From Myxococcaceae bacterium JPH2 (GTDB lineage: Bacteria > Myxococcota > Myxococcia > Myxococcales > Myxococcaceae), in assembly GCA_016458225.1 (NCBI GenBank), contig JAEMGR010000048.1:1-33031 (forward strand): DNA of 33,031 bases. The letters run 5' to 3'. Positions within the stretch are counted from its first letter, which is position 1. Every line of letters starts with the position of its first letter. Shown here piece after piece: positions 3,286 through 29,482 of this stretch. Position numbers and translations under genes: made by a program. The notes below the pieces were generated by a model. It searched no databases, was not told the origin of the DNA, and was given only the letters and a program-made list of their open reading frames with translations.

Positions 3286-3430
3286 GGGCCCCCTCTGTAT
3301 CGCACCTGCTTCTTGAGACTCCAGATTGATAGGAATCAGGCCGCTTGCCGTTGCATGAACTCCCGCAGCACCTCGCTGGCGCGAGCTTCACGTGAGCAGT
3401 GACATGCCTCTGTCGAAACCGCACGACGTG

Positions 3431-4850: not shown

Positions 4851-5126
4851 TCAAGGCAACGACTGGCGCCGTGCCAGTGGAGAGCGGGAGAGTCTGTGCC
4901 TGGAGACGACCTTCACGAAGCGCGGGGCGTCGATCCCCGCGAGAGACCTGTCACGGGGTGGAGGTGGGCACTGTAGGGACGTCCACTCGACGGCGATGTT
5001 GGGATTGAAGGCCCAATCCCCTAACAGATTCGCCCACAACCCTGGCTGGAGGCGGGCCTCCTGCGCGTCGGCGTCGACGACAGCGGAAAACGGCATGCCG
5101 GCCTGGCCTTCCTCCAGGTCGCTCAT
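4851..5126 (-). CDS. Hypothetical short protein, possibly a gene fragment
   Basis: An open frame of 91 codons from an ATG at 5126 (MSDLEEGQAGMPFSAVVDAD, then LQPGLWANLLGDWAFNPNIA). The first 55 residues have a normal globular-protein composition, with acidic and hydrophobic residues alternating. The last 35 are Arg/Ser/Pro-rich and may be read-through of a broken gene. I recognise no family. It is divergent from the leucine-rich-repeat gene with about 150 bp between starts. It may be a remnant of a longer protein rather than an intact gene. Confidence 0.3.
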   Translation of the reverse strand: MSDLEEGQAGMPFSAVVDADAQEARLQPGLWANLLGDWAFNPNIAVEWTSLQCPPPPRDRSLAGIDAPRFVKVVSRHRLSRSPLARRQSLP

Positions 5127-5275
5127 CTCGTCCACACCTGCAGCCCAGGGTGGCCCAAGATTTCCCTGTCGCTCGTTTTCTGCACCTTGAGCTGCGCGGC
5201 GCTCCACCCCCGCGCTTCTTGACGGTCGTCGCCACCCGTTGCCGCCTCGCCAGATTCGGCGATACTTCTCCGACC

Positions 5276-6646
5276 ATGATCCAACGGCCCTGGCCCCTCG
5301 AGCTCGCCGCGCGGCAGCTGATCCGCGATGACGTCGCCGTCGAGTCGCGGCTGTCCGTGGTGGGGCTCGTTCGATTCGACGAAGTCCTGGCTGGCCGCAT
5401 GGCTCGCGGGCTCAAGCGGGAAGACGCCGAGGCCTGGCTCGACCTCCATCGCGCCTGGATCAACGAGCGTTTCGGGGCTGAGGACTTGGTGCCCGCCTTC
5501 ACTCGGTGGTCTCGGCTACGGGCCGTCTCCGAGCTGCGGATCGACTGCAACTGGCTCGGTGTCACGGGGGTAGCCGAGGTGCTTGCGTCACCGCTCCTGC
5601 ATCACCTGGACGAACTCGAGCTGGCCGTCGGGCTCCACACGGTCGAGGCATTCGAGCCGCTGGCTCGGCGAACGATGACCCGCTTGCGCCGCTTCGGCCT
5701 CGCGATGCCCGACGCCCAGGATGGTGACATCCCCGTGGGTGATGATCTGGCCAACCTTCTCTCTGCTGCCGGTCTCGAGCGTCTGGAGAGCCTCGCGCTC
5801 CCTCGCGTCGGCATCGGCCCTACGGGCCTGAGTCGTCTGTTCGACCTGCCCGCGTTGGCCTACTTGGACCTCGCAGGTTCCGTGTTCGGCGAAGAGGGCT
5901 GCCACGCCCTGGCCCGGGCCTCGAGCCTGTCGCGCCTTCGTGGGCTCGATCTCGAAGGCTGTCTCGGATTCGGCGATGCCGGCGACTCGGCATTCCCTGG
6001 CCCCGGCTTCTCGGCGCTCATCACGTCGCCGCGCTTGGCCGTCGCGCATCTCGGACTGGGCGACATCCCGGGAGCCGCCGCGATCGCCGCCGGCTCGGCA
6101 CGCATGACGACCGTCGAGCACCTCGCTCTTTCGGAAGTCGAGGATGACGAGCTCGCGTCCCTCATCGCGTCTCCCTACCTGACCGCTCTCCGCCACCTGC
6201 GCCTGCGGAGCTGCAATCTTTCGAGCACGACCCTCGCCCGGTTTGGACGGTCTCAGCTTCTTGCCGCACTCGAGTCTCTGACCCTGAGCAACGAGCCCAC
6301 GGCGTCGCAGCGGGGTCTCGTCGCTCGGCGCCTGCCGCGCCTGCGCGAGCTTCGGATGGAGGTCAACCACACGACCGCGGACAGCCTCCGCCGCGCCGAC
6401 TTGCCCAACCTCACCGAGCTACACCTCGACTTCGACGCGACGACCCTGAGCCAGGATGAGGAGGTCGAGGAAACCGACCTGGATGCGGTCATCGATGCGC
6501 TCGTGAGCGCGAAGGGCCTGCCGCGTCTGACAGCAGTCGCCACGTCACCTGTTTCGCCCGAACAGATGGCCAAGCTCGCAGGCCGCTTCGGTACGGGATT
6601 CCGGACCAAGGAGTACTCGCTGACGGGCTCGGTCCGGGACCTTTGA
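5276..6646 (+). CDS. Leucine-rich-repeat protein
   Basis: A 456-residue protein from ATG 5276 (MIQRPWPLELAARQLIRDDV). The frame is open upstream to 5150, but that part is low-complexity and there is no better start. An N-terminal helical region of about 80 residues leads into irregular LRR units of the ribonuclease-inhibitor-like kind. They recur as LDELELAV, LESLALPRVGIGPTGLSRLF, LAYLDLAGSVFGEEGCHALA, LRGLDLEGC, VEHLALSEVEDDELASLIAS, LRHLRLRSCNLSSTTLARFG, LESLTLSNEPT and LTELHLDFDA. There is no signal peptide or transmembrane segment, so it is probably cytoplasmic. LRR proteins with an N-terminal helical cap are common in myxobacteria, usually of unknown partner. It stands alone, with gene-poor sequence on both sides. 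Confidence 0.85.
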   Translation: MIQRPWPLELAARQLIRDDVAVESRLSVVGLVRFDEVLAGRMARGLKREDAEAWLDLHRAWINERFGAEDLVPAFTRWSRLRAVSELRIDCNWLGVTGVAEVLASPLLHHLDELELAVGLHTVEAFEPLARRTMTRLRRFGLAMPDAQDGDIPVGDDLANLLSAAGLERLESLALPRVGIGPTGLSRLFDLPALAYLDLAGSVFGEEGCHALARASSLSRLRGLDLEGCLGFGDAGDSAFPGPGFSALITSPRLAVAHLGLGDIPGAAAIAAGSARMTTVEHLALSEVEDDELASLIASPYLTALRHLRLRSCNLSSTTLARFGRSQLLAALESLTLSNEPTASQRGLVARRLPRLRELRMEVNHTTADSLRRADLPNLTELHLDFDATTLSQDEEVEETDLDAVIDALVSAKGLPRLTAVATSPVSPEQMAKLAGRFGTGFRTKEYSLTGSVRDL

Positions 6647-6729
6647 ATCGCGACCCGGAGCAGATTCGTCAGGCGTCACAGGCTGACATGCCCTGGGATT
6701 CTCGGACCATGTGAAGCTTGCGAATTGCA

Positions 6730-6869
6730 GTCGCGCGCCATCGAAACACCTCGGCCCATCCTGCGACCTGAAGGCACACGTCTTCATGCCCGCTAGCGCC
6801 ATCAAGTCTTGAGATGGGGGTCGCGCCCCTGCGTCGTCTCTCGCGCCAAGAGACACCTCCTGGTCGTTC
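6730..6869. repeat. Dispersed ~140-bp repeat, copy 1
   Basis: This stretch aligns by eye with 13065-13206 in the same orientation over its whole length, at roughly three quarters identity. Shared blocks include CTGAAGGCACACG, TCAAGTCT-GAGATGG and GCGCCAAG. It lies in the 418-bp gap between the LRR gene and a lipoprotein gene, where I see no convincing CDS. Open frames cross it on the minus strand, but they differ between the two copies. It could be a MITE-like element or the relic of a shared gene. Confidence 0.65.
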
Positions 6870-7064
6870 AACACCTCGAGATGTACCGCCTGAACCGAAT
6901 CCGCAGTCAAAGCGCCACTCTGGAGCGAGAGGAATCCCAGGGTAAATGCATACGAATTCCTCCCGTGGACCACGCACCTCGACAGCTGGCGCTTCGTGTT
7001 CGTGCTAGCCGAACAGTAGCGGGCTCTCTAAGGTCACGAACCGAACCCGAAGGAGATCGCAACG

Positions 7065-7562
7065 ATGATGCCGTTCAGAGTCGCAGCTCCAGCAGCCGCG
7101 CTGCTCGCCGCGCTAGGGGTGTTGGGCTGCGGCAAAGAGGCCGAACCAACCCCGACTCCCGACCCGGAGCAGCCGGGAGGGACCGTCGACAACGTCCCTG
7201 ACAACCAAGCCCAACACTTCGTCGCCACCGATCCGAGCGACTCGGCGAGTTGGACCTTCGCCCTGCAAGACCAGGTTGCGATCCCTTCAGGTGTCCGCGA
7301 GGTTTTCGTCGAGCTACACGCCTGCCGGCACGCCTACGAGCCACCGGGTGTAATGCGCTTCCGCACGCCCGAGTCGACAAGCTGGCGCAACCTGAACGTC
7401 GACCAGCCCCTTTGCGGCAAGCCCGGCACCCCTGCCGCTCAGGTCTGGCTCCCTGTGAGCGAGTCCCCAAAGCTCGTCGTCGAAGCCGTGCGCCCGGAGA
7501 CGGGAGGCCAGTCCTACGTGCTGACGACCGTCAAGGTTCTCGGCTGGGTCGTGTCCCGATAA
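7065..7562 (+). CDS. Small predicted lipoprotein, unknown function
   Basis: A 165-residue secreted protein. The signal MMPFRVAAPAAALLAALGVL ends at GC (lipobox VLGC), so the mature protein starts at Cys22, followed by a Pro/Thr/Asp-rich linker (PTPTPDPEQPGG). The mature domain (about residues 48-165) is beta-rich with two further Cys (ACRHAY and PLCGKP) that could form a disulfide, and patterns such as WTFALQDQVAIPSGVREVFV and VWLPVSESPKLVVEAVRP suggest a jelly-roll fold. A Shine-Dalgarno-like AAGGAG lies 10 nt before the tandem ATGATG start. I do not recognise a named family. It appears monocistronic. Confidence 0.75.
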   Translation: MMPFRVAAPAAALLAALGVLGCGKEAEPTPTPDPEQPGGTVDNVPDNQAQHFVATDPSDSASWTFALQDQVAIPSGVREVFVELHACRHAYEPPGVMRFRTPESTSWRNLNVDQPLCGKPGTPAAQVWLPVSESPKLVVEAVRPETGGQSYVLTTVKVLGWVVSR

Positions 7563-8472: not shown

Positions 8473-8755
8473 GCAAGGACGAGCGAACCCACGGCATTTC
8501 GCGTCGGGAAGAGTCCTCGCAGAAGCGACGCGAGTGAACCGCAGCGTCGCAACTGAGCGCGATGCAGCTGCCCGACTTCTTCGGACCACTGCTGACGAGA
8601 GAGGCGCCGCTCGGGATGGATTGGGTTCCACGGCATCGCACTGCCGTCGAAACTCCAGAGGCGTGACGTAGCCGCGGCTCCCTCGCCCCGCGCTTCTCGC
8701 CCGGCTTCAGCACGGGCTGCTCAATCGGAGGGTATTACCAGGGGCCGAAGCCGCA

Positions 8756-10919: not shown

Positions 10920-12014
10920 CTACGCCAGATCGACCGGCGCGTAGTAGTGCTGGTCGCCGAGCGCGTCGACGCGCCGCCAGAAATCCTCGCCAACGGCCAG
11001 ACCGCTCGCGCTCTTCTCGGCCGTCTGTCGCCAGAGCGCCCAGGACGCAGGGTGCAGCCTCGTAGCCTCTGCGAACTCGGCGACAGCTTCGTCGGCTTGC
11101 CCGTCGCGCATCAGGGCCTGGCCCAGGCGAAAGTGCGCATGCGCTTCGGTAATTGCTGCGTCAGGCACACTCAGCCGCGACATGACAGCCTTCGCATCGA
11201 GCGTGTACGGGCTCGCGCTGCCACGGACAGCCCAGTCGCGCACCGCGTGGAGATACGCGGCCTTCCCTCGGTCGCGCGCCTCGCGCGCCTCCTCCGGCAT
11301 CGCGAAGGTCTTTCGGTCCATTTCACGGAAGCTGTCCGTCATGCCCGCAGATTCGGGTGGCCGCACCATCTGACCGGCGTCGTCGATCCAAACGGCCTGT
11401 GGCACGTTCACGAGGTTGTACAGCTCGGCGATGAGGTGGTCGCGGTCAATGAGGCAGGGGTAGCCGGGCGAGGCAGCCTCAATCCAAGGCCGGGCCGCGT
11501 CAGGCTGATCCAGCGCGACAGCCAGCACCGTGAACCCGTGCTCCTTCGCGGCTTGGTGGAGCGACTGCCAGACGGGCAACTCTCCTCGGCAGCCGCACCA
11601 CGAGGCCCAGGTAACCAGGAAGACTTTGCGGCCTCGGTAGTCGGACAATCGATGCAGCCGCCCATCAAGGTCGGGCAACGCGAAGTCGGGCGCATTCAGC
11701 GAAGTCAGCGCGGCAGCACGGCGCGATGCGCCCTCGCCGAGCACCCAGATCTTCCCCGAGCGGCTATGCACGACAGGCCAGCCCGCGTGCCGCCACGCGC
11801 CCGCCGCATCGATGCGTTCCCCGTCGACCAGATTCTGGTTGCCGCGCGGGAAGGGCATACAGGTGTCATCTCGACACAGGCCCACGGGTTTCCACAACCA
11901 GCCGGTGGCGAGTTCAAGTTCCCCCTTGTCCAGCCAGAGGGCGTCGCCATCAACCGTCGCGCGCGCCAGGCGCGTGTCCTGCGATTCATGAAGCACTCGA
12001 ATCTCGCGCGTCAT
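10920..12014 (-). CDS. Redoxin (thioredoxin-fold) protein with TPR-like C-terminus
   Basis: A 364-residue cytoplasmic protein starting MTREIRVLHESQDTRLARAT behind a GGGAGGG Shine-Dalgarno. Residues 1-100 form an uncharacterised domain (LWLDKGELELATGWLWKPVG, with Cys47 and Cys52 in GLCRDDTC). Residues about 105-235 are an AhpC/TSA-TlpA-like redoxin (NAPDFALPDLDGRLHRLSDY, VFLVTWASWCGCRGELPVWQ, FTVLAVALDQ). The active site reads WCGCR, so the cysteines (140 and 142) are one residue apart instead of two. Residues about 285-345 hold a TPR-like pair (HAHFRLGQALMRDGQADEAV, then FAEATRLHPAS). It is divergent from an AraC-family gene that may control it. It is not secreted as far as I can see, unlike ResA or TlpA. 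Confidence 0.88.
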   Translation of the reverse strand: MTREIRVLHESQDTRLARATVDGDALWLDKGELELATGWLWKPVGLCRDDTCMPFPRGNQNLVDGERIDAAGAWRHAGWPVVHSRSGKIWVLGEGASRRAAALTSLNAPDFALPDLDGRLHRLSDYRGRKVFLVTWASWCGCRGELPVWQSLHQAAKEHGFTVLAVALDQPDAARPWIEAASPGYPCLIDRDHLIAELYNLVNVPQAVWIDDAGQMVRPPESAGMTDSFREMDRKTFAMPEEAREARDRGKAAYLHAVRDWAVRGSASPYTLDAKAVMSRLSVPDAAITEAHAHFRLGQALMRDGQADEAVAEFAEATRLHPASWALWRQTAEKSASGLAVGEDFWRRVDALGDQHYYAPVDLA

Positions 12015-12127
12015 CGAAACCCTCCCTGTCTTGAGTTGTGACACCCTACGCAGCGGAGAGAGTCGAAGCCTGCCCAATTCTCGTCCTCCCTTGCCTGATT
12101 CTCTCCCTGTGCGCAGAATCGGCCCGA

Positions 12128-13213
12128 ATGCCTGCCAACCCATCCAAGCGAACGAACGACGAGGGGGTTCATGGGGACCTGCGGCGGCTGACCGAGTACG
12201 CGCTGCGACTCATTCCACCTTCGACTGCGCGAACGGCGCAGCTCGTCACGCCACGGCACGGCTTGTACCTGTTGCGGCAGCACCAGCGCACGGCCTTCGA
12301 GGCCGCCATCTATTCCCCGATGCTTTGTCTGATTCTCCAAGGATGCAAGGAGATGACCTTCGGCGAGCATCACTTTCGTCTGCGCGCCGGCGAGTGCGCG
12401 CTGGTGAGCCATGACCTGCCGATTGTCTCCCGAGTCCGGGAGGCACCCTATCTGGTGTTGCTCCTCAACATCGAAGTCGATGTGCTTCGGAGCCTCTACG
12501 AAGACATCGGCGAACGGGTGACGACCGCAGCCGAGGCGCGAGCGCTCGAGGTGCATCAGGCCGACTCGCGCCTTCTCGACGCCATCAGCCGCTATCTCAC
12601 GCTCTCGGAGTCGGCGATGGACGCGCGGGTGCTCGGCCCGATGTTGCTCAAGGAGATCCACTACCGCCTGATGATGGCGCCGCTCGGCCCCATGCTGCGG
12701 AGCCTGATTCGGCACGACAGCCACGCGAGCTCGATCGCCCGCGCCATCGCGCTCCTGCGGCGAGACTTCCGCTCGCCGGTGGTGGTGGAGGAACTGGCGC
12801 GCGCGGTGGGGATGAGCGTTTCGTCGTTCCACAAACACTTCAAGGCCGTCACCTCGTCTTCGCCACTGCAGTACCAGAAAGGCCTGCGCCTGCTCGATGC
12901 GCGGCGGATGCTCGTGGCGGGCACGGCCTCGGTGACCGCGGTTGCGTTCGAGGTTGGCTACGAGAGTCCCAGCCAGTTCAGTCGCGAGTACACACGAAAG
13001 TTCGGACGGCCGCCCAGCCAGGACGTGGCGCCCAAGGCGCCCAGCGCCTCTTCACACGGGGCCCGTCGCGTCCCATCAAACCACCCCGACCCTCCCCTTC
13101 GGACTGAAGGCACACGCCTTCGCCCCACTCGCACCGTCAAGTCTCGAGATGGCGGGGTCTCCCCTGCGCCGTCTCGCACGCGCCAAGGGACAGCTCCTGG
13201 CAGTTCGGCTTGA
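12128..13213 (+). CDS. AraC-family transcriptional regulator with repeat-derived C-terminal tail
   Basis: A 361-residue regulator from ATG 12128. Residues about 20-190 match the AraC_N type sensor domain (TPRHGLYLLRQHQRTAFEAA, YSPMLCLILQGCKEMTFGEH, ECALVSHDLPIVSRV). Residues about 198-300 are the double HTH: SIARAIALLRRDFRSPVVVE, LARAVGMSVSSFHKHFKAVT, ASVTAVAFEVGYESPSQFSR, EYTRKFGRPPSQD. The family normally ends about there. The extra ~60 residues are Pro/Arg/Ser-rich, and the last ~48 are encoded by the second copy of the dispersed repeat. The original stop has evidently been lost. DNA binding is probably intact. It is divergent from the redoxin gene with 113 bp between starts, the usual position for a regulator and its target. 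Confidence 0.92.
   Translation: MPANPSKRTNDEGVHGDLRRLTEYALRLIPPSTARTAQLVTPRHGLYLLRQHQRTAFEAAIYSPMLCLILQGCKEMTFGEHHFRLRAGECALVSHDLPIVSRVREAPYLVLLLNIEVDVLRSLYEDIGERVTTAAEARALEVHQADSRLLDAISRYLTLSESAMDARVLGPMLLKEIHYRLMMAPLGPMLRSLIRHDSHASSIARAIALLRRDFRSPVVVEELARAVGMSVSSFHKHFKAVTSSSPLQYQKGLRLLDARRMLVAGTASVTAVAFEVGYESPSQFSREYTRKFGRPPSQDVAPKAPSASSHGARRVPSNHPDPPLRTEGTRLRPTRTVKSRDGGVSPAPSRTRQGTAPGSSA
13065..13206. repeat. Dispersed ~140-bp repeat, copy 2, overlapping the AraC gene end
   Basis: Matches 6730-6869 end to end by eye. Similarity begins at GTCGCG (13065) and stops at GTTC (13206), where the flanks diverge. It supplies the last ~48 codons of the AraC-family gene, ending seven bases before that gene's stop. 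The sequence is not obviously flanked by a target-site duplication. Confidence 0.65.
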
Positions 13214-13332
13214 GGATTCTTCCCCGCCTGGGCGCACAGCCGAAACTCGGAGCAATTCGAGCCGGAAACGTCCTTGCTGAATGCCCCCGACTCTCGTGCG
13301 AGCTCAGCCGGTCCGGCAGAGCCCTTCCCGCG

Positions 13333-14004
13333 TCACATTCCCAGCCGGCGCACCAGCTCGGCCGGCACTGGAAAGACGGTCTCCTTCGGCAGCAAGCGCA
13401 CGGCATGATCCGCGCGCCCGTCGTCCAGGTGCTTGCGCACCTTCTGCACCAGCGGCGTCAGGTCGGTGATGGAGACAATCCAGTCCTTCACGAAGCTCTG
13501 GATGATGGCTCGCCCCAAGCCCACCTGGATGCTGTCATGTGGCAGCCCCGCCCCCCTTAGCGTGCGCTCTGGATCCCACTGCACATGGACGGGCGCGGCA
13601 TCGAACGCCTTGCGCCAGGCCTCTGGGGAGCCATGGGCCTTGGGCTCGAAGCTCGTGAGCACCGCGGCGCCGAGTGCCTCCTCCCAGCCCGTGCGACGGA
13701 CTCGCACCGCGAGCGTCCGCTCCTGCCCGCTCTTACGCCCCCAGTTGGAGCGATGCATCAGCCACAGGAAGCTGGGCTTGATCCACGTCATCCGCCCCAC
13801 GGAGAAGGGCGGGCCGAACGTCTGCTCCTTCACCGCCACGTCCGCGATGGCATCCGGATAGGCCTGATACATCACGATGGACGTCCGATCGAAGTCGGCG
13901 CGGATCTCTCGGGCGGCGCTCACCGTGCCATGGCCTCCGTGGATGGGGGGCTGCGTCCCGTCGTCACGGCGCCCACAGTACCACGGGGGCCAGGGCGCCC
14001 CCAC
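13333..14004 (-). CDS. DUF4291 family protein
   Basis: A 223-residue cytoplasmic protein of the DUF4291 family, recognised from its conserved run. It shows [75 protein letters not shown], and [20 protein letters not shown] ending in [15 protein letters not shown]. The [11 protein letters not shown] and QWDPER blocks are the family hallmarks. No biochemical function is established that I can cite. The start is uncertain: homology begins at REIRADF (residue 32 of the longest frame), so a GTG at VSAAREI would give a protein about 28 residues shorter. It is transcribed alone, divergent from a membrane-anchored protein gene. Confidence 0.92.
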
Positions 14005-16160: not shown

Positions 16161-17624
16161 ATGAGCCGCCTGGCATCCCCCTCCACACCGACACGGGTAA
16201 CGACGTGCCGACCCGGTGCACGGACATGGCGCATGCGGGCGCTCTCGCTCGCGGTCATGGGGACCGCCGCCGGCCTTGCCGCCTGTGCGGTGCCGTCCGC
16301 GCGCGCCGTGTCTCCGGCCGGAGTGCCCGCGTTCAGCGAAGACATGTTGTCGCCCGAGTTCTGGATCCGCCGTGCGCCGTCGCCCGACGAGGTGCTGCTC
16401 GATGCCGACCAGGTGGCCGCGAAGCGCATGCGCGCGTTCGGTCCAGATGGCGGACTGGTCGATTTGAGGCGCATCCCAGCCACGCTGACGCGGGAGCAGG
16501 TCGCCAGTTGGATCAAGGATGCGCAGCAGACGCCCATCCAGGCAACGATCGACGAACAGGGCCTGCCGGTGACGGAGGCGATGCGCGCAGAACTGCGCCA
16601 GAACGCCGCGACCGAGCACATCCCCGAAGCATCCACCGCGCGCTACGGCCTCAGTGTGCGGCGCACGCCCCTGCGGTCACTGCCGTCGGACCGGCAATTC
16701 TTCGCCGCGGAGAACCTGCGCGACTACGAGAGCCTGCAGGCCGGCATCCTGTTCCCCGGCGAGCCGGTCGTCATCGCGCACCACAGCTCGGATCAGCAAT
16801 GGATGTTCGTCCTGACGACCCAAGGGCCCGCGTGGGTCCGGCGCGGAGACGTCGCGGAGGGCACGGCGGACACGGTGTTTTCGTACGTGGCGAAAGCGCC
16901 TGGACGTGTCGTCACGGGCGACCAGGTGCGCACGGTATTCACACCGGAAGCACCAGGGGTATCCGAGCTTGAACTCGACATGGGGGTCGAGCTGCCACGG
17001 GCCGACGTGGCACCCGGCGAGCCCGTCAACGGCGCCAGCGCCTATGCATCGTGGCCGGTGCTGCTGCCGGTGCGCGAGCAGGACGGCACACTCGCCTTCC
17101 AGGGCGCGCTGCTGCGCCGTACCGCCGACACCGCGCCGGGATATCTGCCGCTGACACGTGCCAACATCCTCCGGCAGGCGTTCAAGTTCCTCGGCGAGCG
17201 CTACGGTTGGGGGCACCAATTCAATGCGCGCGACTGCAGCGGACTGACCAGCGAAGTGTACCGCAGCATGGGGCTGTTCTTGCCGCCGAACTCCGGGATG
17301 CAAGGGAAGAGCGCGGCGTTGAACCACCGCCTCTTCACCGCACAGGACTCGCACACCGAGCGGCTGCGCGCACTGGCCCAAGCGCAGGTGGGTGACCTCG
17401 TCGTCGTTCCCGGTCATGTGTTGATGATCATCGGCCACGTGGATGGCGAGCCCTACGTCATCCAAGATGTCCCATACGCCGTGTTCAAGGATCCGGACAC
17501 GCAGCAGCTCCGCAAGACGAAGCTGAACCAGGTATCGGTCACTCCGCTGCTGCCGCTGTATGCCGACGACTCGACCCTGTACGTGGACGCGATGACGAGC
17601 CTCGTGCACGTCACGCGGCCATAG
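16161..17624 (+). CDS. SH3-domain NlpC/P60 cell-wall peptidase lipoprotein
   Basis: A 487-residue predicted murein endopeptidase. A lipoprotein signal ends at LAAC (AVMGTAAGLAAC). ATG 16233 (MRALSLAVMG) would give a standard signal length, so the real start may be there rather than at 16161. Residues about 55-165 are the N-terminal stabilising region, followed by SH3-like domains (LSVRRTPLRSLPSDRQFF, PVVIAHHSSDQQWMFVLTTQ and GPAWVRRGDVAEG). The C-terminal NlpC/P60 domain has the nucleophile Cys359 (FNARDCSGLTSEVYRSMGLF) and His419 (VPGHVLMIIGHVDGEPYVI). This order resembles YkfC-type gamma-D-glutamyl-L-diamino acid endopeptidases, so recycling or trimming of peptidoglycan stem peptides in the periplasm is likely. 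No immunity-type neighbour is adjacent. Confidence 0.9.
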   Translation: MSRLASPSTPTRVTTCRPGARTWRMRALSLAVMGTAAGLAACAVPSARAVSPAGVPAFSEDMLSPEFWIRRAPSPDEVLLDADQVAAKRMRAFGPDGGLVDLRRIPATLTREQVASWIKDAQQTPIQATIDEQGLPVTEAMRAELRQNAATEHIPEASTARYGLSVRRTPLRSLPSDRQFFAAENLRDYESLQAGILFPGEPVVIAHHSSDQQWMFVLTTQGPAWVRRGDVAEGTADTVFSYVAKAPGRVVTGDQVRTVFTPEAPGVSELELDMGVELPRADVAPGEPVNGASAYASWPVLLPVREQDGTLAFQGALLRRTADTAPGYLPLTRANILRQAFKFLGERYGWGHQFNARDCSGLTSEVYRSMGLFLPPNSGMQGKSAALNHRLFTAQDSHTERLRALAQAQVGDLVVVPGHVLMIIGHVDGEPYVIQDVPYAVFKDPDTQQLRKTKLNQVSVTPLLPLYADDSTLYVDAMTSLVHVTRP

Positions 17625-18267: not shown

Positions 18268-19185
18268 TCAGGTGCCCAGTCGCCGGAACCACGCCTCGGT
18301 CCGGGGGATGGCTCCGCCGCCGATCCGCAGCGCCATGGACTGGTCCGCCGCGAGGGCGATCCACGGTGCGAGCAGCCGATAGACCTCTCGGTACAGCCGC
18401 AACGTCTCTGGGGAGGCGGCATCGCCTGTCGTGGGAGCCGGCCCCGCTTTGATCAAGGTGCCATGCCGGGCTTCGAGCAGCTCGACTTCGGCAGGAAGCT
18501 GACGCCGCAAGGCACTGACTCCACCGAGTGGCGCCAGCGTCCCCGCGTCGAGCAACGTCAGCCAATTCACGCCCTGGATGCCATTGTTGCCCACTGCCTT
18601 GGCGTCGAACGGGATGCGAACGATGTCGATGCCCGGGTAACGCATCGACATGTTCCATGCGTGAGTCTCACTGGCCTGCTTGTCATACCGGGAGCATTCG
18701 AAGGCGAAGCCCGCGGACCCACAACGGAAGGAGAACACTTCGGCCAGTTGGTGGACGAACGCAAGGAGGTCACTCGGATTGTCTCGGGCGTCCACCGCCG
18801 GGAACGCCATGGACAGGATGTTGGCCTGCTGGCTCGCATCCACGTTCCAGATTTCGAACTTGGTGGAGGGAGCATCGTGAGGCTTCTCGCTGACCTTCAG
18901 CTCCAGTGCGAGGTAGTTCTTGCGAGGCGCATCGGGAGCCAGCCAGGTGCCGAGCAGTCCGAGGACCCGCTTCGTGACCGGCTTGTGGACCTTCATCGTC
19001 TCCGTGGCGTGGAAGGTCAGCCGCGCGGGCGGGCACCGGGTCTGAAACAGCTCCCAGGCCGACAGCAGCCCGACGGAGCCGTCGTAGAACGAGCGGCTGG
19101 TATACAGGTTGATGCCGAAGACCCACGAGGTCAGCCGGATGCCGTCCTGGATGAGCTCGAGTTCGGAGGGTGAGGGTGCGTGCAT
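18268..19185 (-). CDS. DUF3396 / type VI immunity family protein
   Basis: A 305-residue cytoplasmic protein starting MHAPSPSELELIQDGIRLTS. It follows the DUF3396 layout. An N-terminal alpha/beta half (SWVFGINLYTSRSFYDGSVG, LLSAWELFQTRCP) is followed by a middle strand segment (DAPSTKFEIWNVDASQQANI). The second half carries the marks FSFRCGSAGFAFECSRYD, MSMRYPGIDIVRIPFDAKAV, NWLTLLDAGTLAPLGGVSAL and a final LYREVYRLLAPWIALA helix. Proteins of this family are annotated as immunity factors that neutralise polymorphic or type VI effectors, and myxobacteria carry many paralogues. No matching toxin gene is recognisable within the window. The gene lies 158 nt downstream of a WD40 gene on the same strand. 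The longer open frame to 19695 is antisense read-through. Confidence 0.85.
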   Translation of the reverse strand: MHAPSPSELELIQDGIRLTSWVFGINLYTSRSFYDGSVGLLSAWELFQTRCPPARLTFHATETMKVHKPVTKRVLGLLGTWLAPDAPRKNYLALELKVSEKPHDAPSTKFEIWNVDASQQANILSMAFPAVDARDNPSDLLAFVHQLAEVFSFRCGSAGFAFECSRYDKQASETHAWNMSMRYPGIDIVRIPFDAKAVGNNGIQGVNWLTLLDAGTLAPLGGVSALRRQLPAEVELLEARHGTLIKAGPAPTTGDAASPETLRLYREVYRLLAPWIALAADQSMALRIGGGAIPRTEAWFRRLGT

Positions 19186-19343
19186 GGTGTGGGGCCTTTG
19201 CCTGCCGTCGCGTCGAAGCACGCGGAGAAGAAGCTCGCACAGACCAAGGCCCTGTTGAAATGGAGTGAAGGGGTCGGGGCGTTGATGGAACCGGATGCCC
19301 GACCTCGCGATGCCCGTGCGCACACCGTCGGAAGTGCGTGGCG

Positions 19344-20306
19344 CTAGACCAGAGGCATCGACAGCAGCTCCCGTTGGCACGTCACGTAGAGCGTCCGATC
19401 GTGCACCAACAGGCCGCCCAGTTCGACGTGGCCGACGTCGTACACGGCGAGGCACTCGGTGGAGTCGAGCGACCAGACGCGCACGGTGCCGTCGGAGCTT
19501 CCGGTGCACAGCAGCCCGCGCGAGGGCTCCACCGCGACGAAGTCCACCCAGTGCGCATGGCCCTGCCATTGCCGCACGACGCGGCCAGTGACGCTGTGGA
19601 CCATGTGGGCCACGAAGTCCCAGTACCCGCAGAGGAGGTGCTCTCCGTCGGGGTGCCAGGCCAGCCCCCGGAGGGTGTTCGACGGGCGGTTCCACACGAT
19701 GCCGAGCTGTTCCTTGCGCGCTTCGCTGAGGGGCTCATGGTGGGCGGTGGCCATGCGCAGGTGGAAGAGGGCGCGGACGTCGAGCGTGCGGTCTTCGAGC
19801 ACGTGGACCGCGCCGTTGCTTCCGCCCACGGCGACGAGGCCCCGGGAAGGCGCATGCGCGAGCGCGTAGAGCGGCCCGGTCTGCAGCGTGCGCAGGCTCT
19901 CTCCCGTCCAGGCATCCCAAAGCTGCGCGCTGCTGTCGGCGCTGATGGAGACGACGCGGTCCTCGCTGACGATCGCGGCGGCCTGGACCTCTTCTCCGTG
20001 CCCCTCGAAGGTCTGCACGCGTTGCCAGTCCTGGGAGTCCCAGAGGGCCAGGCCGCGAATCTTGTGCGCCTCGAGCACGCGGCCCAGCTCGGCTTCCCCC
20101 GCCAGCCGGAACCAGGGCTCTCCATTCCGACAGATGGCGTCCGTCTTCAGGACCCGCGTGCACTCACCGGTCGCCAGACTCCAGAGGAAGATGCGCCCAC
20201 GCCCATTCGCGGCGATGTGACGCCCATCCGGCCACAGCATCGGCGCCCCAAGCGGATCTCCATCGAGGTTGTCCGCCTCGAGCATCTGGGGATGACGGCG
20301 CCACAT
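19344..20306 (-). CDS. WD40-repeat protein
   Basis: A 320-residue propeller without signal or membrane segments. Blades are visible as LWPDGRHIAANGRGRIFLWS, LATGECTRVLKT; VQTFEGHGEEVQAAAIVSED, RVVSISADSSAQLWDAWTGE; LYALAHAPSRGLVAVGGSNG, AVHVLED; LRGLAWHPDGEHLLCGYWDF, VAHMVHSVTGRVVRQWQGHA; and HWVDFVAVEPSRGLLCTGSS, DGTVRVWSLDS. This makes about six or seven blades, enough for one closed propeller. The role is probably as a scaffold or sensor; no catalytic domain is fused. It is upstream of the DUF3396 gene (gap 158 nt) and divergent from an AraC regulator. It is not closely similar by eye to the WD40 gene at 1378-2796. Confidence 0.88.
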   Translation of the reverse strand: MWRRHPQMLEADNLDGDPLGAPMLWPDGRHIAANGRGRIFLWSLATGECTRVLKTDAICRNGEPWFRLAGEAELGRVLEAHKIRGLALWDSQDWQRVQTFEGHGEEVQAAAIVSEDRVVSISADSSAQLWDAWTGESLRTLQTGPLYALAHAPSRGLVAVGGSNGAVHVLEDRTLDVRALFHLRMATAHHEPLSEARKEQLGIVWNRPSNTLRGLAWHPDGEHLLCGYWDFVAHMVHSVTGRVVRQWQGHAHWVDFVAVEPSRGLLCTGSSDGTVRVWSLDSTECLAVYDVGHVELGGLLVHDRTLYVTCQRELLSMPLV

Positions 20307-24502: not shown

Positions 24503-25051
24503 TCAAGATGGAGTTGTTTGGATGACCAGGGCATCCAGCTCGATGACATCGCCTGGGGTACCTTCGGCGCCAGTCACTTCCACGGACACCCGCTCCGTCC
24601 CCGCCGGAGCCGTCAGCTCGCGAGTGGTCCGCACCCATTGCTCGGAAAGCACGGGGCTGGAGAGCGTCTCCGCCTGCAGCTCCCGACCGCTGGAGTCGCG
24701 CCAGACGACCCGCATCTCAGCGACCAGGGAGCGCCCAGCCGTCCCACGTGCCCAGAAGGAAGCGCGGTGGGCCCCTGGGGATGCCGCGAACCCTGGCCAG
24801 TTGTCGGTGATGACACCCCAGCCGTATGGCGCGGTCACCTCCACGCGCAGGCCCGCCTCGCCCTCTCTCGCGGCGGTGGGCGCTCTCGAAATGGTGACCG
24901 CGAACCACGCCCCCCAGGTTCCGAGCCCCGTCTCCAGGGATGCGGTCTCCGCGTCCAGCAGATTGGCGGTGGGAGAATGATCGAAAACGGCGGGCTCACA
25001 GGCGGTCAGCGCCGTCGCCAGCACCAGCGTGCTCCAGTGCCTCGGTTTCAT
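24503..25051 (-). CDS. Lipoprotein with carbohydrate-binding-like jelly-roll domain
   Basis: A 182-residue lipoprotein. The signal MKPRHWSTLVLATALTAC gives Cys18 at the lipobox LTAC. After a short linker the mature domain (LLDAETASLETGLGTWGAWF, then GEAGLRVEVTAPYGWGVITD, HRASFWARGTAGRSLVAEMR and RTTRELTAPAGTERVSVEVT, ending VIELDALVIQ) has the signature of CBM4/9/22-like jelly rolls: a leading N-x-E-x-L-x-W-type start, a SFWAR core strand and a closing DVIELDALVI strand. A carbohydrate or glycoconjugate ligand is likely but not shown. The start overlaps the FecR stop as ATGA, so it is translationally coupled and is the last gene of the sigma operon. A surface or periplasmic sensor or effector role would fit. 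Confidence 0.8.
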   Translation of the reverse strand: MKPRHWSTLVLATALTACEPAVFDHSPTANLLDAETASLETGLGTWGAWFAVTISRAPTAAREGEAGLRVEVTAPYGWGVITDNWPGFAASPGAHRASFWARGTAGRSLVAEMRVVWRDSSGRELQAETLSSPVLSEQWVRTTRELTAPAGTERVSVEVTGAEGTPGDVIELDALVIQTTPS

Positions 25052-26082
25052 CGCGCGGTCTCGCGGTCTTGGCTCTCACACGACAGCGCCCCACGCGCAC
25101 GCTGGACCGCCTCCGTGTAGTGCCCGCGCCGGAACTGCAGCTCGTGCCGGGCCCAGTGCGCGCAGGCGCGCTGCGCGTCCTTGAGCTGGTACGTCAGCAA
25201 CGAGCCCAGCTCGAAGCTGAGGCGCTCCCGCGTCGCCATCGGCTGCTTGCGCATCGCATCCTCGAGGTACCTCGCCGCTTGCTCGAACTCGTGCCGACCG
25301 CGAAGGACCTCCAGCTCTCGCAAGACCTCCTCCGCATTCGGAGCACGAACCGGAGCGACGGGAACGCGGGAAGGTGAAGCCTTCGGGATGGGCGCTGCCA
25401 GCGGTTGGGGCCGCTCCGGCACAGGCGGAACAGGCTCGGGGGTCGCGGGCTCGGCAGGTTCGGCCACGGGCCACTCCAAGGTCTGTCCCACTCGCACAGG
25501 AATCACCGCGCCGCTGGGCAGACGGAAGGCAATGGCCCCCTCGTGCAGAGTGACCGCGCCTCCTGACTCCCGCGCATCCACCGTGAAGCGCGTGCCCATG
25601 ACCTCGATGGCGCCGCCGGACACGAGCACGACGGCGGGAGGCGAACCTGGCTGGCGGTGATTCACCGAGAACTCCGCGCGCCCACGAACCAGGCGCACCC
25701 CGGAGGACTCTCGGCGGACGACGAGCGGCCCCTGGTTCTGGAGGGTGATGCCTCGGGCCACATCCATCAAGGCGCCCTCACCCGCTTGAATCTCCACCCC
25801 CACGGCGTCTTCCCGCACCTTCAGGTCGACACTGCCCCGCGCAAGCTCGAGTCCCCCCCACGAGCGCACCGAGGGTGACCGCATGAAGAACACCACGAGC
25901 ACCAGCGCCACCGCCGACGCGGCGAGTCCCCAGAACACAGGTCGCCTGTGCCCTGCGCGCTTCGGCTCGCGAGCGTCCCGCAACCGAGACCACACCCGAG
26001 CCCGAACGGCGGGTGGCATCCCTTGCTCGCGGCGGAGCGGGTCTTCACGCCGAAGCTCTGCGCGAAAGTCACGGGGAGCCAT
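25048..26082 (-). CDS. FecR-family membrane regulator (putative anti-sigma factor) with TPR-like tail
   Basis: A 344-residue single-pass protein. About 48 cytoplasmic residues (RREDPLRREQGMPPAVRARV, a helical sigma-binding-like part) precede a transmembrane helix at about residues 50-67 (FWGLAASAVALVLVVFFM). The periplasmic FecR domain spans about 85-195 (VEIQAGEGALMDVARGITLQ, AVVLVSGGAIEVMGTRFTVD, AVTLHEGAIAFRLPSGAVI). A Pro-rich linker (PATPEPVPPVPERPQPLAAP) leads to a helical TPR-like end (EVLRELEVLRGRHEFEQAAR, then QLKDAQRACAHWARHELQFR). The start overlaps the sigma gene end by 14 nt and has an AGGTGG site, so the two are coupled. It most likely holds the ECF factor inactive until an envelope signal arrives. 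Confidence 0.92.
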   Translation of the reverse strand: MAPRDFRAELRREDPLRREQGMPPAVRARVWSRLRDAREPKRAGHRRPVFWGLAASAVALVLVVFFMRSPSVRSWGGLELARGSVDLKVREDAVGVEIQAGEGALMDVARGITLQNQGPLVVRRESSGVRLVRGRAEFSVNHRQPGSPPAVVLVSGGAIEVMGTRFTVDARESGGAVTLHEGAIAFRLPSGAVIPVRVGQTLEWPVAEPAEPATPEPVPPVPERPQPLAAPIPKASPSRVPVAPVRAPNAEEVLRELEVLRGRHEFEQAARYLEDAMRKQPMATRERLSFELGSLLTYQLKDAQRACAHWARHELQFRRGHYTEAVQRARGALSCESQDRETAR

Positions 26083-26629
26083 CTTCCACCTTCCATCCCC
26101 AGGCCAGCAGACGGCCCTGGGCGCGGCTGATCAACTTCGACACGTAGCCCTCTGACAGCGAGAGGAGCTGGGCAATCTCGCGCTGGCTCAGGTCATCGAG
26201 AATCTTCAAGGCCATCACCACCCGCTCCTGCCCTGGCAAACGGTCCAGCGTCGCCGAGGCGCTGCGCACCGCCTCGCGTCGCACGAGGGCCGCCTCCGGC
26301 GTGGACTCCGTCTCCGCGGGTTGCACCGGAAACAAGAGTTCGGAGATGCGCTGTCGAAACGTCTTCTCGCGCCGCAGGGCGGAGAACGCCACGTTCTGCG
26401 TGACGCGAAAGAGCCAACCCCGAACATCCTCCTCGCGCAGCCAGGCCCGGTGCTCCCAAGCCTTGAGGAAGACGTCATGTGTGACGTCTTCGGCCCAACT
26501 CGAACGGCCGGCCGCATACCGCATGGCCCAGACGTAGACGTCCTCGGCGTGCTCCTCGTAGAGCGTGTCGAATGACACAGGCCGGGCAGGCAGAGCGAGC
26601 GGGGCCTTGGAGGGGAGAGCACGCGACAT
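26069..26629 (-). CDS. ECF-type RNA polymerase sigma factor
   Basis: A 186-residue sigma-70 family factor with only regions 2 and 4. Region 2 spans about residues 18-88 (FDTLYEEHAEDVYVWAMRYA, WAEDVTHDVFLKAWEHRAWL, VRGWLFRVTQNVAFSALRRE). Region 4 spans about 125-178 (LDRLPGQERVVMALKILDDL, SQREIAQLLSLSEGYVSKLI, SRAQGRLLAW). No extra C-terminal domain is present. It is followed by the FecR gene with a 14-nt overlap, the standard sigma/anti-sigma arrangement. A motif GGAAAGT-N16-GTAG sits just upstream at 26645-26671 and recurs at the divergent DUF1592 operon, so it probably directs its own transcription and that of the export operon. Confidence 0.95.
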   Translation of the reverse strand: MSRALPSKAPLALPARPVSFDTLYEEHAEDVYVWAMRYAAGRSSWAEDVTHDVFLKAWEHRAWLREEDVRGWLFRVTQNVAFSALRREKTFRQRISELLFPVQPAETESTPEAALVRREAVRSASATLDRLPGQERVVMALKILDDLSQREIAQLLSLSEGYVSKLISRAQGRLLAWGWKVEDGSP

Positions 26630-26678: not shown

Positions 26679-27590
26679 TTACAGCCCCCAGGAAAGCTGA
26701 GCGCCGGTTTCCAGCCTCGCGCCTCCCCGAGACCACAGCGTCTCGCCCTCGCTCACATGCGTCACGGGCCGCAGCAGCCCCAGGGCCACGCGCAGCTCCG
26801 CCGAGAGACGCTCGGAGAACCGCCACCGGAGCTTCATCCGAGCCCACCCCGCGGGAGACACCTGGGTCCCCGTCTGGCTCGACAACCCAGCGTCCTTGAG
26901 CTGGAAGGCGTGGATGACGAGCCCCGTGCCCGCCCCCGGCTCGAGCAGAAGTCGCTCCGCCACGGAGAGCCGGTAGCTGACGAAGGCGCCACCCTGCACC
27001 TCGAACACGGTCAGCGCCGCATCGCGTGACACTCCGAGCCCCGCCTCCGCATCCAGGCCGAATGACTCCCAGCCACGCCTGACAAAGAGCAGGAGATGGG
27101 GATCAACCGTGGGCCCACGCCAGACCGTTCCCAGCCCCAGCCCCAAGTCCAGCGAGGGCTGCCATGGAGCGGCGGCCACCTCCACAGGTGGCTGGAGCAC
27201 GGGCTCGGGCGGGGGTGGCTCGGGGTCCGGATCCGGCTCGGGCTGCACCGCCCGAGTCATCTCGGAGAGCTTCTGGGCGACTTCCAGATGAAGCTCCGAG
27301 AGAGAACCCCGCCCCACTCGAACCCCCTGCTCCACCCGATGCCGCGGCCCGACGGCCTCGAGCCGCAGTCCTTCGGGAGTGCGGCTTGCGCGCAGTCGAA
27401 GCTGCGCCGGACTCTGTGGAGAGACGACCGCGAAGCCCTCCTGAATCAGGCGCAGCGCCACCTGTCGCTCCAGCGCCACGCCATCCCACCGCCGGTAGTC
27501 CTGCTCGGGCAGCGCACGAAGGTCGAAGGACACCGACACCGCCGGGGCCTGGGTCAGGACGAGGGAGAGCGCGCAGAGCAGAGCAGTCAT
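26679..27590 (-). CDS. Exported protein with C-terminal outer-membrane beta-barrel-like domain
   Basis: A 303-residue protein from ATG 27590 (MTALLCALSLVLTQAPAVSV, a short signal peptide). The N-terminal half (about residues 20-115) is an alpha/beta domain (FDLRALPEQDYRRWDGVALE, RQVALRLIQEGFAVVSPQSP). A Pro/Glu linker follows (PEPDPDPEPPPPEPVLQPPV). The C-terminal 165 residues alternate in strands with aromatic girdles (LDLGLGLGTVWRGPTVDPHL, FGLDAEAGLGVSRDAALTVF, FVSYRLSVAERLLLEPGAGT, ARMKLRWRFSERLSAELRVA), typical of a small outer-membrane barrel, although the last residue is Leu rather than Phe. It ends 49 nt before the sigma gene on the same strand and may be cotranscribed with it. A signal-sensing role for the ECF-FecR system is plausible but unproven. 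Confidence 0.7.
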   Translation of the reverse strand: MTALLCALSLVLTQAPAVSVSFDLRALPEQDYRRWDGVALERQVALRLIQEGFAVVSPQSPAQLRLRASRTPEGLRLEAVGPRHRVEQGVRVGRGSLSELHLEVAQKLSEMTRAVQPEPDPDPEPPPPEPVLQPPVEVAAAPWQPSLDLGLGLGTVWRGPTVDPHLLLFVRRGWESFGLDAEAGLGVSRDAALTVFEVQGGAFVSYRLSVAERLLLEPGAGTGLVIHAFQLKDAGLSSQTGTQVSPAGWARMKLRWRFSERLSAELRVALGLLRPVTHVSEGETLWSRGGARLETGAQLSWGL

Positions 27591-27668
27591 GCGGTGAGGG
27601 GCGAGAGTACCGTCGCCCGTGGCCCCCAGCCAGCATCGACTGCCCATTCGCGCTGAGGCCACTGGGCA

Positions 27669-27695
27669 GGAAAGTATTTTCGGCCACGCGAGTAG
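27669..27695 (+). promoter_or_regulatory. Candidate ECF-sigma promoter upstream of the DUF1592-DUF1552 operon
   Basis: GGAAAGT (27669-27675), 16 bp, then GTAG (27692-27695), matching the element before the sigma gene in both boxes and spacing. It ends 8 nt before the ATG at 27704, so the transcript would be almost leaderless. It lies in the 113-bp divergent region shared with the barrel-protein gene. Confidence 0.6.
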
Positions 27696-27703
27696 CCAGG
27701 GGC

Positions 27704-29482
27704 ATGACGCTTCCTCGCTCCGTGAGCCTCCTGCTTCTTTGCGCTGGCGCGGTCGCCTGTAATGGATCCATCGGGCCCAGCCCGCACACCGGCGGAGACG
27801 AACCCGCTCCGCCGCCCGCGTCCGAGTCCATCCATCCGGCGCCAGCGCAGTTCTCCTGCGACACCAACGCAGTCCCCGCGGACCTGCCGTTGCCCCGGCT
27901 GTCCCGGACGCAGCTGATGAACTCGCTCCGCTTCGCCATTGCCCGTGCGCTGCCGAACGAGGCCGATGCCCTCTGGGCGAAGCTCACTCCCAACCTCGCC
28001 CGTTACCCCACGGACCGGCGCACTCCCGCGCCGGGTGACTTGAAAGGCGGCTTCAGCCGGCTGGACCAATCCATCCAGCAGACCCAGGTCGACGTCATGT
28101 ATGACCTGGGCAAGGCCGTGGCCCAGGAGCTGACCAGCACCGACGCGCGCCGCAACGCGCTCCTCGGAAGCTGCGCGAGCGACAGCCAGACAGCGAACGA
28201 TCGGGCCTGCCTGGAAACTTTCATCCGAGGTTGGGGCTCGCGCGTCCTGCGCTATCCGTTGCCGACGGCGGAGGTCACCGCCTTCGCCGACATCGCCGGA
28301 GCCACCCCGGTGGACAGAGCGGCGGTGGCGGACGTCATCACCACCCTCTTGAACTCGCCCTGGTTCCTCTACCGGATCGAGCATGGCACCACCGCCGACG
28401 GCGCGGTGAGTCCCCTCTCCGCGTTCGAGCTGGCCTCGAAGCTGTCCTATCAATTCTGGCAAGCGCCTCCGGACGACGCGCTCTGGGCTGCGGCGGCCGA
28501 TGGCTCGCTCCTGACCGCGAGCGGCTTCAGCGCACAGGTCGACCGGATGATGAAGAGCGCGCAGTTGCGAAGCGCGTTGGACGAGTTCGTCAGCGAGTGG
28601 CTGCGACTCGAGGAGTTGCCGTCGCTGGTGGCGCTCCAGAACGACCCGGTCTACCAGTCCTTCGTTGGGGCGCAGATGCCTACGGACGCCACGCGCACCG
28701 CGATGCTCGAGGACGTTCGGCTCTCCGCCTGGAACACCGTCGTGTCCGGAGGCTCGGTGAGTGACTTCCTGCACGACCGGAGGTCCTACACGTCGGATCC
28801 ATTCCTGGCCGCCATCTACGGCGTGCCTGTCTGGAACGGATCCGGTCCAGCGCCGGTCATGCCGTCCCAGAATCGCAGCGGACTTCTGACCCGCGCGGCA
28901 TTGCTGGCCACGGGGACCGCCTCGACGCGTCCCATCCACAAGGGATACCTGGTGCGCAACGCCCTGCTCTGCCAGCAAGTCGGGGCGCCTCCGCCCAATG
29001 CCAGCGACAGGCCACCCGCGCCCACGGCGAGCACGACGACGCGACAGGCGGTGACCCAGCTCACCTCCGGAGGCATCTGCGGAGGCTGCCACAACAGCAC
29101 CATCAACCCACCGGGCTTTGTCCTCGAAGGATTCGATGCGCTCGGCCGAGAGCGCAGCGTGGAGCGGCTGTTCAACCCGCAGGGCCAGGAGACCGCCTCG
29201 CCCGCCGTGGACACCTCAGCGGACGTGCGGATCTACGACTCCGAGCAACGAGTCATCTCCAACGCCGCGGACCTCTCGCGGATGATCGATGACAGCCAGC
29301 TCTTCGAGTCGTGCGTCGCGCAACACTACTTCCGCTTCGCGCACGCTCGCGTGGAGTCCACCTCCCGCGATGGCTGCCTGCTCTCGGAGATGGAGACCGT
29401 CGCGCGCAGCGGCGCACCGATGTCTGACTTGTTGAAGACCGTCGCCAATCACCCCACGTTCAAGCAGAGGAGCTTCCAGTGA
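27704..29482 (+). CDS. DUF1592/DUF1588/DUF1585-type lipoprotein with one CxxCH motif
   Basis: A 592-residue exported protein of the Planctomycetes/myxobacteria DUF1592 group. A signal (MTLPRSVSLLLLCAGAVAC) gives a probable lipid-modified Cys19. After a Pro-rich linker, LPRLSRTQLMNSLRFAIARA opens the helical part; DUF1595- and DUF1592-like regions follow (FIRGWGSRVLRYPLPTAEVT, VITTLLNSPWFLYRIEHGTT, FELASKLSYQFWQAPPDDAL). The DUF1588-like part has NRSGLLTRAALLATGTAS, KGYLVRNALLCQQVGAPPP and CGGCHNSTINPPGFVLEGFD, with the motif at residues 459-463. DUF1585 closes (LFESCVAQHYFRFAHARVES). The single CxxCH suggests one c-type haem. The N-terminal cytochrome domain of longer homologues is absent. 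It is coupled by a GTGA overlap to the DUF1552 gene. The role is unknown. Confidence 0.92.
   Translation: MTLPRSVSLLLLCAGAVACNGSIGPSPHTGGDEPAPPPASESIHPAPAQFSCDTNAVPADLPLPRLSRTQLMNSLRFAIARALPNEADALWAKLTPNLARYPTDRRTPAPGDLKGGFSRLDQSIQQTQVDVMYDLGKAVAQELTSTDARRNALLGSCASDSQTANDRACLETFIRGWGSRVLRYPLPTAEVTAFADIAGATPVDRAAVADVITTLLNSPWFLYRIEHGTTADGAVSPLSAFELASKLSYQFWQAPPDDALWAAAADGSLLTASGFSAQVDRMMKSAQLRSALDEFVSEWLRLEELPSLVALQNDPVYQSFVGAQMPTDATRTAMLEDVRLSAWNTVVSGGSVSDFLHDRRSYTSDPFLAAIYGVPVWNGSGPAPVMPSQNRSGLLTRAALLATGTASTRPIHKGYLVRNALLCQQVGAPPPNASDRPPAPTASTTTRQAVTQLTSGGICGGCHNSTINPPGFVLEGFDALGRERSVERLFNPQGQETASPAVDTSADVRIYDSEQRVISNAADLSRMIDDSQLFESCVAQHYFRFAHARVESTSRDGCLLSEMETVARSGAPMSDLLKTVANHPTFKQRSFQ

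Follow-up and report, generated by a model that had tools for sequence, protein, structure and literature searches.

MITEs are elements of 50–500 bp that are normally intergenic, and truncated members may lose their ends and come to resemble REPs; Rickettsia palindromic elements (RPEs), of approximately 150 bp, are located in frame inside genes, as these classes are described in the review PMC10969869. For REPs, the features considered in this study are an extragenic palindrome and its presence in many copies per genome. The attC site of integrons is an imperfect palindrome that follows a gene and shares its orientation, with a size comparable to the repeat described below and with the core-site motif GTTRRRY.

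In the current study, we analysed a stretch of 33,031 nucleotides (hereafter the window) from the draft genome of Myxococcaceae bacterium JPH2 (designated G000; 8,994,968 bases in 144 contigs), in which a dispersed repeat of approximately 140 bp had been predicted from the sequence. Its two copies are termed c1 (6730..6869) and c2 (13065..13206), and a third was retrieved from a genome of another genus (G080). The repeat resembles MITEs in that it falls within 50–500 bp, is not accompanied by a transposase, is mostly intergenic and is scattered, when compared with the class as outlined in PMC10969869. Its length of approximately 140 bp is combined with broken reading frames and the lack of any Pfam match. 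It differs from MITEs in that the terminal inverted repeats do not rise above shuffles (first against last 35 bases: scores of 5, 5 and 6 for c1, c2 and the G080 copy, matched or exceeded by 70%, 74% and 60% of 500 shuffles) and in that there are three copies only.

With REPs the repeat shares a hairpin in non-coding DNA close to gene ends, this hairpin being positioned behind stop codons in c1 and the G080 copy and overlapping the end of an open reading frame in c2. In contrast to REPs, homology extends far beyond the palindrome, and the repeat is not highly repeated, with two convincing copies in G000 and one in G080. The likeness to RPEs comprises a similar size and the fact that c2 is in frame with an AraC-type ORF (RPEs again as covered in PMC10969869), although this is one in-frame case in three copies, it is confined to the extreme end of the gene, and the resulting tail is a predicted one. 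An attC site was rejected, as Pfam-matched ORFs between c1 and c2 are found on both strands rather than as cassettes of one direction; by eye, no GTTRRRY core site is discernible at the repeat ends. Since terminal inverted repeats and a high copy number are both lacking, we refrain from classing the element with either MITEs or REPs, and the membership of such a family that had been suggested is not upheld, with three copies in 145 genomes.

Results

A homologous pair of repeats in the window

Copies c1 and c2, both on the plus strand (for c1 the sense of the upstream gene), are identical at 109 of 143 alignment columns (76.2%), and by blastn either copy retrieves the other from the window at E 1.5e-22, the next-best window match to either being at E 0.018; at the scale of the whole genome the pair is found at E 1.6e-20. 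The alignment extends end to end in the same orientation, as had been predicted by eye, with three gaps, of 1, 1 and 2 bases. Its local alignment score is 72, whereas 300 shuffles averaged 12.9 and never exceeded 22, confirming that the homology of c1 and c2 is real and far above chance. The abrupt loss of similarity predicted for both sides is compatible with an extension test, in which extension beyond the copies scored 3 on the left (40 of 60 shuffles as good) and 17 on the right (8 of 60 shuffles as good), a short weak continuation being possible on the latter side. Shared words near the repeat ends, inspected as putative target duplications, of which none is clear, reached 4–5 bases at best, which is the level of chance and has to be read against the age of the copies and the uncertainty of their exact ends; a shared word of 7 bases at the inner limits of the c1 core lies inside the repeat.

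The statement that neither a tRNA nor a transposase explains the repeats is supported: a tRNA was rejected since the window contains none, and none of the 30 ORFs that were scanned, out of 130 listed, gave a transposase Pfam match.

Occurrence across genomes

Searches for additional copies employed blastn, a sequence profile built from c1 and c2 alone (R1) and a model with one hairpin rebuilt from all three copies (R2), the latter being applied to 145 genomes of the order and, with laxer filters, to a set of 40. In the R1 and R2 searches the best-ranked candidates per genome only were scored, and stricter filters were applied where more than 40 genomes were searched. By blastn, R1 and R2, c1 and c2 are the only convincing copies in the G000 draft; a blastn search of this genome with c1 returned c1 itself, c2, and then 31 bases at E 0.048 and 19 bases at E 0.59. 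Over 60 genomes including G000, blastn gave no match outside G000 at E 0.001.

Across 96 genomes of the family, R1 revealed a third copy at G080:C1:8901822-8901913 (approximately 93 columns; E 4.1e-10, runner-up E 0.002), in another genus and at an unrelated locus, which substantiates the description of the repeat as dispersed. Its pairwise scores are 47 with c2 and 38 with c1, against maxima of 25 and 20, respectively, in 300 shuffles. The core common to this copy spans columns 13–105, corresponding to 6742..6833 in c1 and 13077..13168 in c2 (both on the plus strand), with 63 and 69 of 93 columns, respectively, identical to G080. In columns 13–87 the identities are 56/75 (c1-c2), 55/75 (c1-G080) and 59/75 (c2-G080), the last two amounting to a core conservation of 73–79% between genera. 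As all three cores have diverged from one another to a similar extent, the c1/c2 pair does not represent a recent local duplication. A comparison of 17 kb around the G080 copy with the window gave no match in DNA (E 0.01) or in translated ORFs (E 1e-4), although the default-scored blastn of these 17 kb failed to show the element itself, so that other short relics would have been missed too.

Among the 145 genomes of the order, R2 detected no convincing copy beyond these three, so that the search of relatives yielded one additional copy; the match that followed them (G100, E 0.009) lies within an open frame, and the 40-genome run with laxer filters gave three more matches at E 0.035–0.07. Neither G001, the one other genome of the same genus in the set, nor any of the 15 further genomes from the genus of G080 had an R2 match below E 0.01. 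The R2 scores of the three copies, at 102–114 bits, are high by construction. Phages, queried with c1 and the G080 copy, and plasmids, queried with c2 and the G080 copy, gave no match. A literature search with general terms retrieved no description of the element, which may hence have been published all the same.

A number of weaker matches were rejected. The 18-mer CTGAAGGCACACGYCTTC has nine scattered genome matches and three viral ones, and with R2 these twelve either reached at most 22 bits or, in several cases, were unlisted, as against the 102–114 bits of the three copies. In whole-length alignment with c1, L017 and L023 lie more than 4 standard deviations above shuffles, an excess that was discounted because the 18-mer is shared by construction; L017 lies, moreover, in an apparent coding frame. 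Other viral patterns returned 0, 8, 3 and 0 stretches, none of these 11 exceeding 17 bits with R2. Thirteen short blastn matches in the 96 family genomes (E 0.0011–0.008, with a threshold of E 0.01) had at most 17 bits with R2 or were unlisted, and they fall on different parts of the query, with four, from one genus, on one part. The longest of them, L027, shares CTGAAGGCACACGCCT, yet obtains 12 bits with R2 and spans several open frames. Most of the 13 next R1 matches (L074–L086, from a list with 21 more) exceeded 100 shuffles with at least one copy, as is expected from selection over 96 genomes, and they were rejected, seven having been viewed as alignments and judged to be chance; L079 shares only GLKAHAF and lies in an open frame that presumably encodes an RdgC-like protein. 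The R2 matches L089, L090, L091 and L093 (26.7–31.2 bits) were dismissed, L089 as it lies in an open frame and the other three on their alignments alone.

Position of the copies relative to genes

Copy c1 starts 83 bases past the stop codon of a leucine-rich-repeat-like ORF of 498 aa (5150..6646, plus strand), whose Pfam LRR matches are below the curated cut-off, and the G080 core starts 12 bases past the stop codon of a MacB/FtsX-type permease gene. Copy c2 starts inside an ORF of 391 aa for an AraC-type regulator (12038..13213, plus strand) and, rather than lying outside reading frames, forms its 3′ end, in frame. All three copies have the orientation of the gene on their left and are located behind it or, for c2, in its 3′ end; three of three on the sense side has a chance of approximately 1 in 8.

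The tail that the AraC-type ORF derives from c2 amounts to approximately 48 residues (343–390). The closest relative retrieved, L008, which is truncated by its contig end and matches at 68% over 140 residues, stops by our reading after ...PPSRDVAAR, at approximately residue 334 of the AraC-type ORF, and three more distant relatives stop 13, 14 and 19 residues past the equivalent of residue 330, beyond which the ORF itself continues for 61 residues. As a practical warning, approximately the last 48 predicted residues of this protein are probably not ancestral.

Coding potential

The c1-c2 mismatches within columns 61–87, five in number, all fall in one codon phase (approximately 0.012, allowing for three phases), as do eight of 11 in columns 61–111 (0.026). 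This bias is gone when the third copy is included, the counts in columns 61–87 being 0, 1 and 3 for c2-G080 and 0, 5 and 3 for c1-G080. With gaps of 1, 1 and 2 bases, the reading frames are not maintained between c1 and c2, and none of the five frames of the repeat that were compared with Pfam matched up to E 1. Of four frames compared with PHROGs, one weakly matches (E 0.019) a family without an assigned function. A 73-aa frame of c2 matches c1 at E 4.6e-4 with one stop, and in 98 genomes it has seven weak matches elsewhere (E 0.0026–0.0093). The broken frames, the loss of the phase bias in the third copy and the Pfam result support non-coding as the better reading of the repeat, in agreement with the original prediction.

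Hairpin and predicted folding

A hairpin around GAAG...CTTC, of the type GAAGGC-ACAC-GCCTTC, is present in each of the three copies and occupies columns 37–62 on the plus strand, at 6765..6790 in c1 and 13101..13125 in c2. Seven contiguous pairs are predicted in c1 and seven, together with two outer ones, in c2, and folding of 33-base pieces yielded z -3.45 for c2 (0/200 shuffles as good), -2.79 for G080 and -1.51 for c1 (16/200). In the majority consensus 10 of 11 positions pair, the eleventh being without a majority base. For three hairpins counted on the alignment, 81.6% of cells pair, compared to 32–47% when slid, for a structure that was chosen from these sequences; this percentage was reached by 32 of 500 shuffles, and the covariation, with 67 of 500 shuffles as high, is not above them.

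Full-length folds of c1 and c2 were unremarkable on both the plus strand (z 0.23 and -0.59) and the minus strand (z -1.79 and -1.48). The G080 stretch folds at z -2.79 on one strand and -2.50 on the other, aided by a G-run beside the stop codon, and contains a second strong stem after this codon. The RNAalifold energies of -32.2 (plus) and -33.4 (minus) favour no strand. No terminator with a T-run was found in 6500–7200 or in 12900–13500. An Rfam family was rejected, as Rfam 15 gave no match at the gathering score in the window and none up to E 1 in the three copy-bearing loci.

Discussion

Employing a combined approach of alignment, profile searching and folding, we propose, with a probability of roughly 45%, that c1 and c2 are fossil copies of a small non-coding, non-autonomous mobile hairpin element, MITE/REP-like in behaviour. 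Such an element would measure approximately 140 bp in G000, with a core of approximately 93 columns common to the copy in the other genus. Its copies would have spread as DNA through the action in trans of a transposase or other recombinase not encoded adjacently, may have settled where little harm is done and would then have decayed; c2, being in frame with the AraC-type gene, would have provided the predicted tail. The patchy occurrence, the unrelated sites and the lack of shared flanks, as judged from three copies, appear to fit the movement of small DNA better than vertical descent, and mobility itself we infer from the scatter of these copies alone. The terminal inverted repeats and the covariation, neither of which rises above shuffles, the unremarkable full-length folds of c1 and c2, the want of a clear target duplication and the small number of copies speak against this proposal. 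The dispersed-element reading of the original prediction is accordingly retained as regards its non-coding and dispersed nature, and relinquished as regards MITE or REP membership.

The main rival, which we consider rather unlikely, is that the repeat is a structured 3′-UTR or terminator-like RNA, in which a hairpin transcribed from the upstream gene would terminate transcription or shield the 3′ end of the mRNA, with the core kept by selection. The sense orientation of all three copies behind or at a gene end, the hairpin in each of them, the core identity between genera and the second stem past the stop codon in G080 are consistent with such a role, although the orientation is an event of approximately 1 in 8, no T-run terminator is found around either window copy, RNAalifold gives similar energies on both strands with no Rfam match, and the element is not retained in relatives among the 40 and 145 genomes searched with R2. 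A derivation of the copies from a larger insertion sequence or gene, of which they would be the non-coding terminus or a degraded coding fragment and hence remnants of a lost protein gene, is in our view quite improbable. The concentration of c1-c2 mismatches in one codon phase and the match of the 73-aa frame to c1 argue for this origin, and other short repeats of the window may be insertion-sequence remnants; against it, the phase bias is absent with the G080 copy, the gaps break the frames, Pfam is silent up to E 1, the best PHROGs match is weak and the 73-aa frame has weak matches only elsewhere.

An old local duplication in this region, with the G080 match due to a separate transfer, would account for the spacing of 6.3 kb between the only two copies of G000 and for a homology that covers 143 columns between them as opposed to approximately 93 with G080. 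It is nevertheless very unlikely, given that the c2 core is as near to G080 as to c1 and that no flank has clearly been duplicated along with the repeat. The more ambitious suggestion, namely an undescribed hairpin element that moves horizontally, settles at gene 3′ ends via an unknown enzyme and is able to lengthen C-termini, as in the AraC-type case, we hold to be highly doubtful. The element is ordinary in kind, being a known type of thing and not obviously important. If the reading as a fossil mobile element is true, it adds one further small, low-copy entry to the known intergenic repeats, with c2 as a case in which a repeat forms the predicted tail of a regulator.

Neighbouring repeats and other genes of the window

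Four other short dispersed repeats, of approximately 70–130 bp, are located at 3295–3366, 5099–5228, 8557–8680 and 19247–19328, each being present at several places in G001; the third of these occurs at 7 places in G000 and 5 in G001. None of the four has a blastn relation to c1 or c2. On its minus strand, 8557–8680 reads RGYVTPLEFRRQ, which we take to resemble the end of an IS3-type transposase; this reading has no Pfam match. A stretch of 318 bp (L073:1928-2245), located approximately 335 bases past the G080 core, has 30-base terminal inverted repeats that are 87% complementary and looks like a MITE-like element in its own right. Circumstantially, both neighbourhoods would appear to have a history of small insertions.

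Among the remaining genes of the window, 10920–12143 (minus strand) encodes a ResA-like protein that scores 290 bits, against a cut-off of 300, with the NCBIfam WAxxUGC family, the name of which suggests a candidate selenocysteine motif. A protein with NlpC/P60 and SH3 domains (16161–17624, plus strand) is encoded near a TsiV-type (type VI immunity) protein (18268–19695, minus strand), and the two possibly form an effector and immunity neighbourhood. At 31428–32876 (plus strand) a FAD-binding protein strongly matches the substrate domain of the cytokinin-dehydrogenase family (E 4.2e-45), whose best-known members are plant proteins. Adjacent genes at 27164–31086 (plus strand) encode DUF1592/1588/1595/1585 and DUF1552 domains, and adjoining these, at 25048–26629 (minus strand), are an ECF-type sigma factor and a FecR-domain protein.
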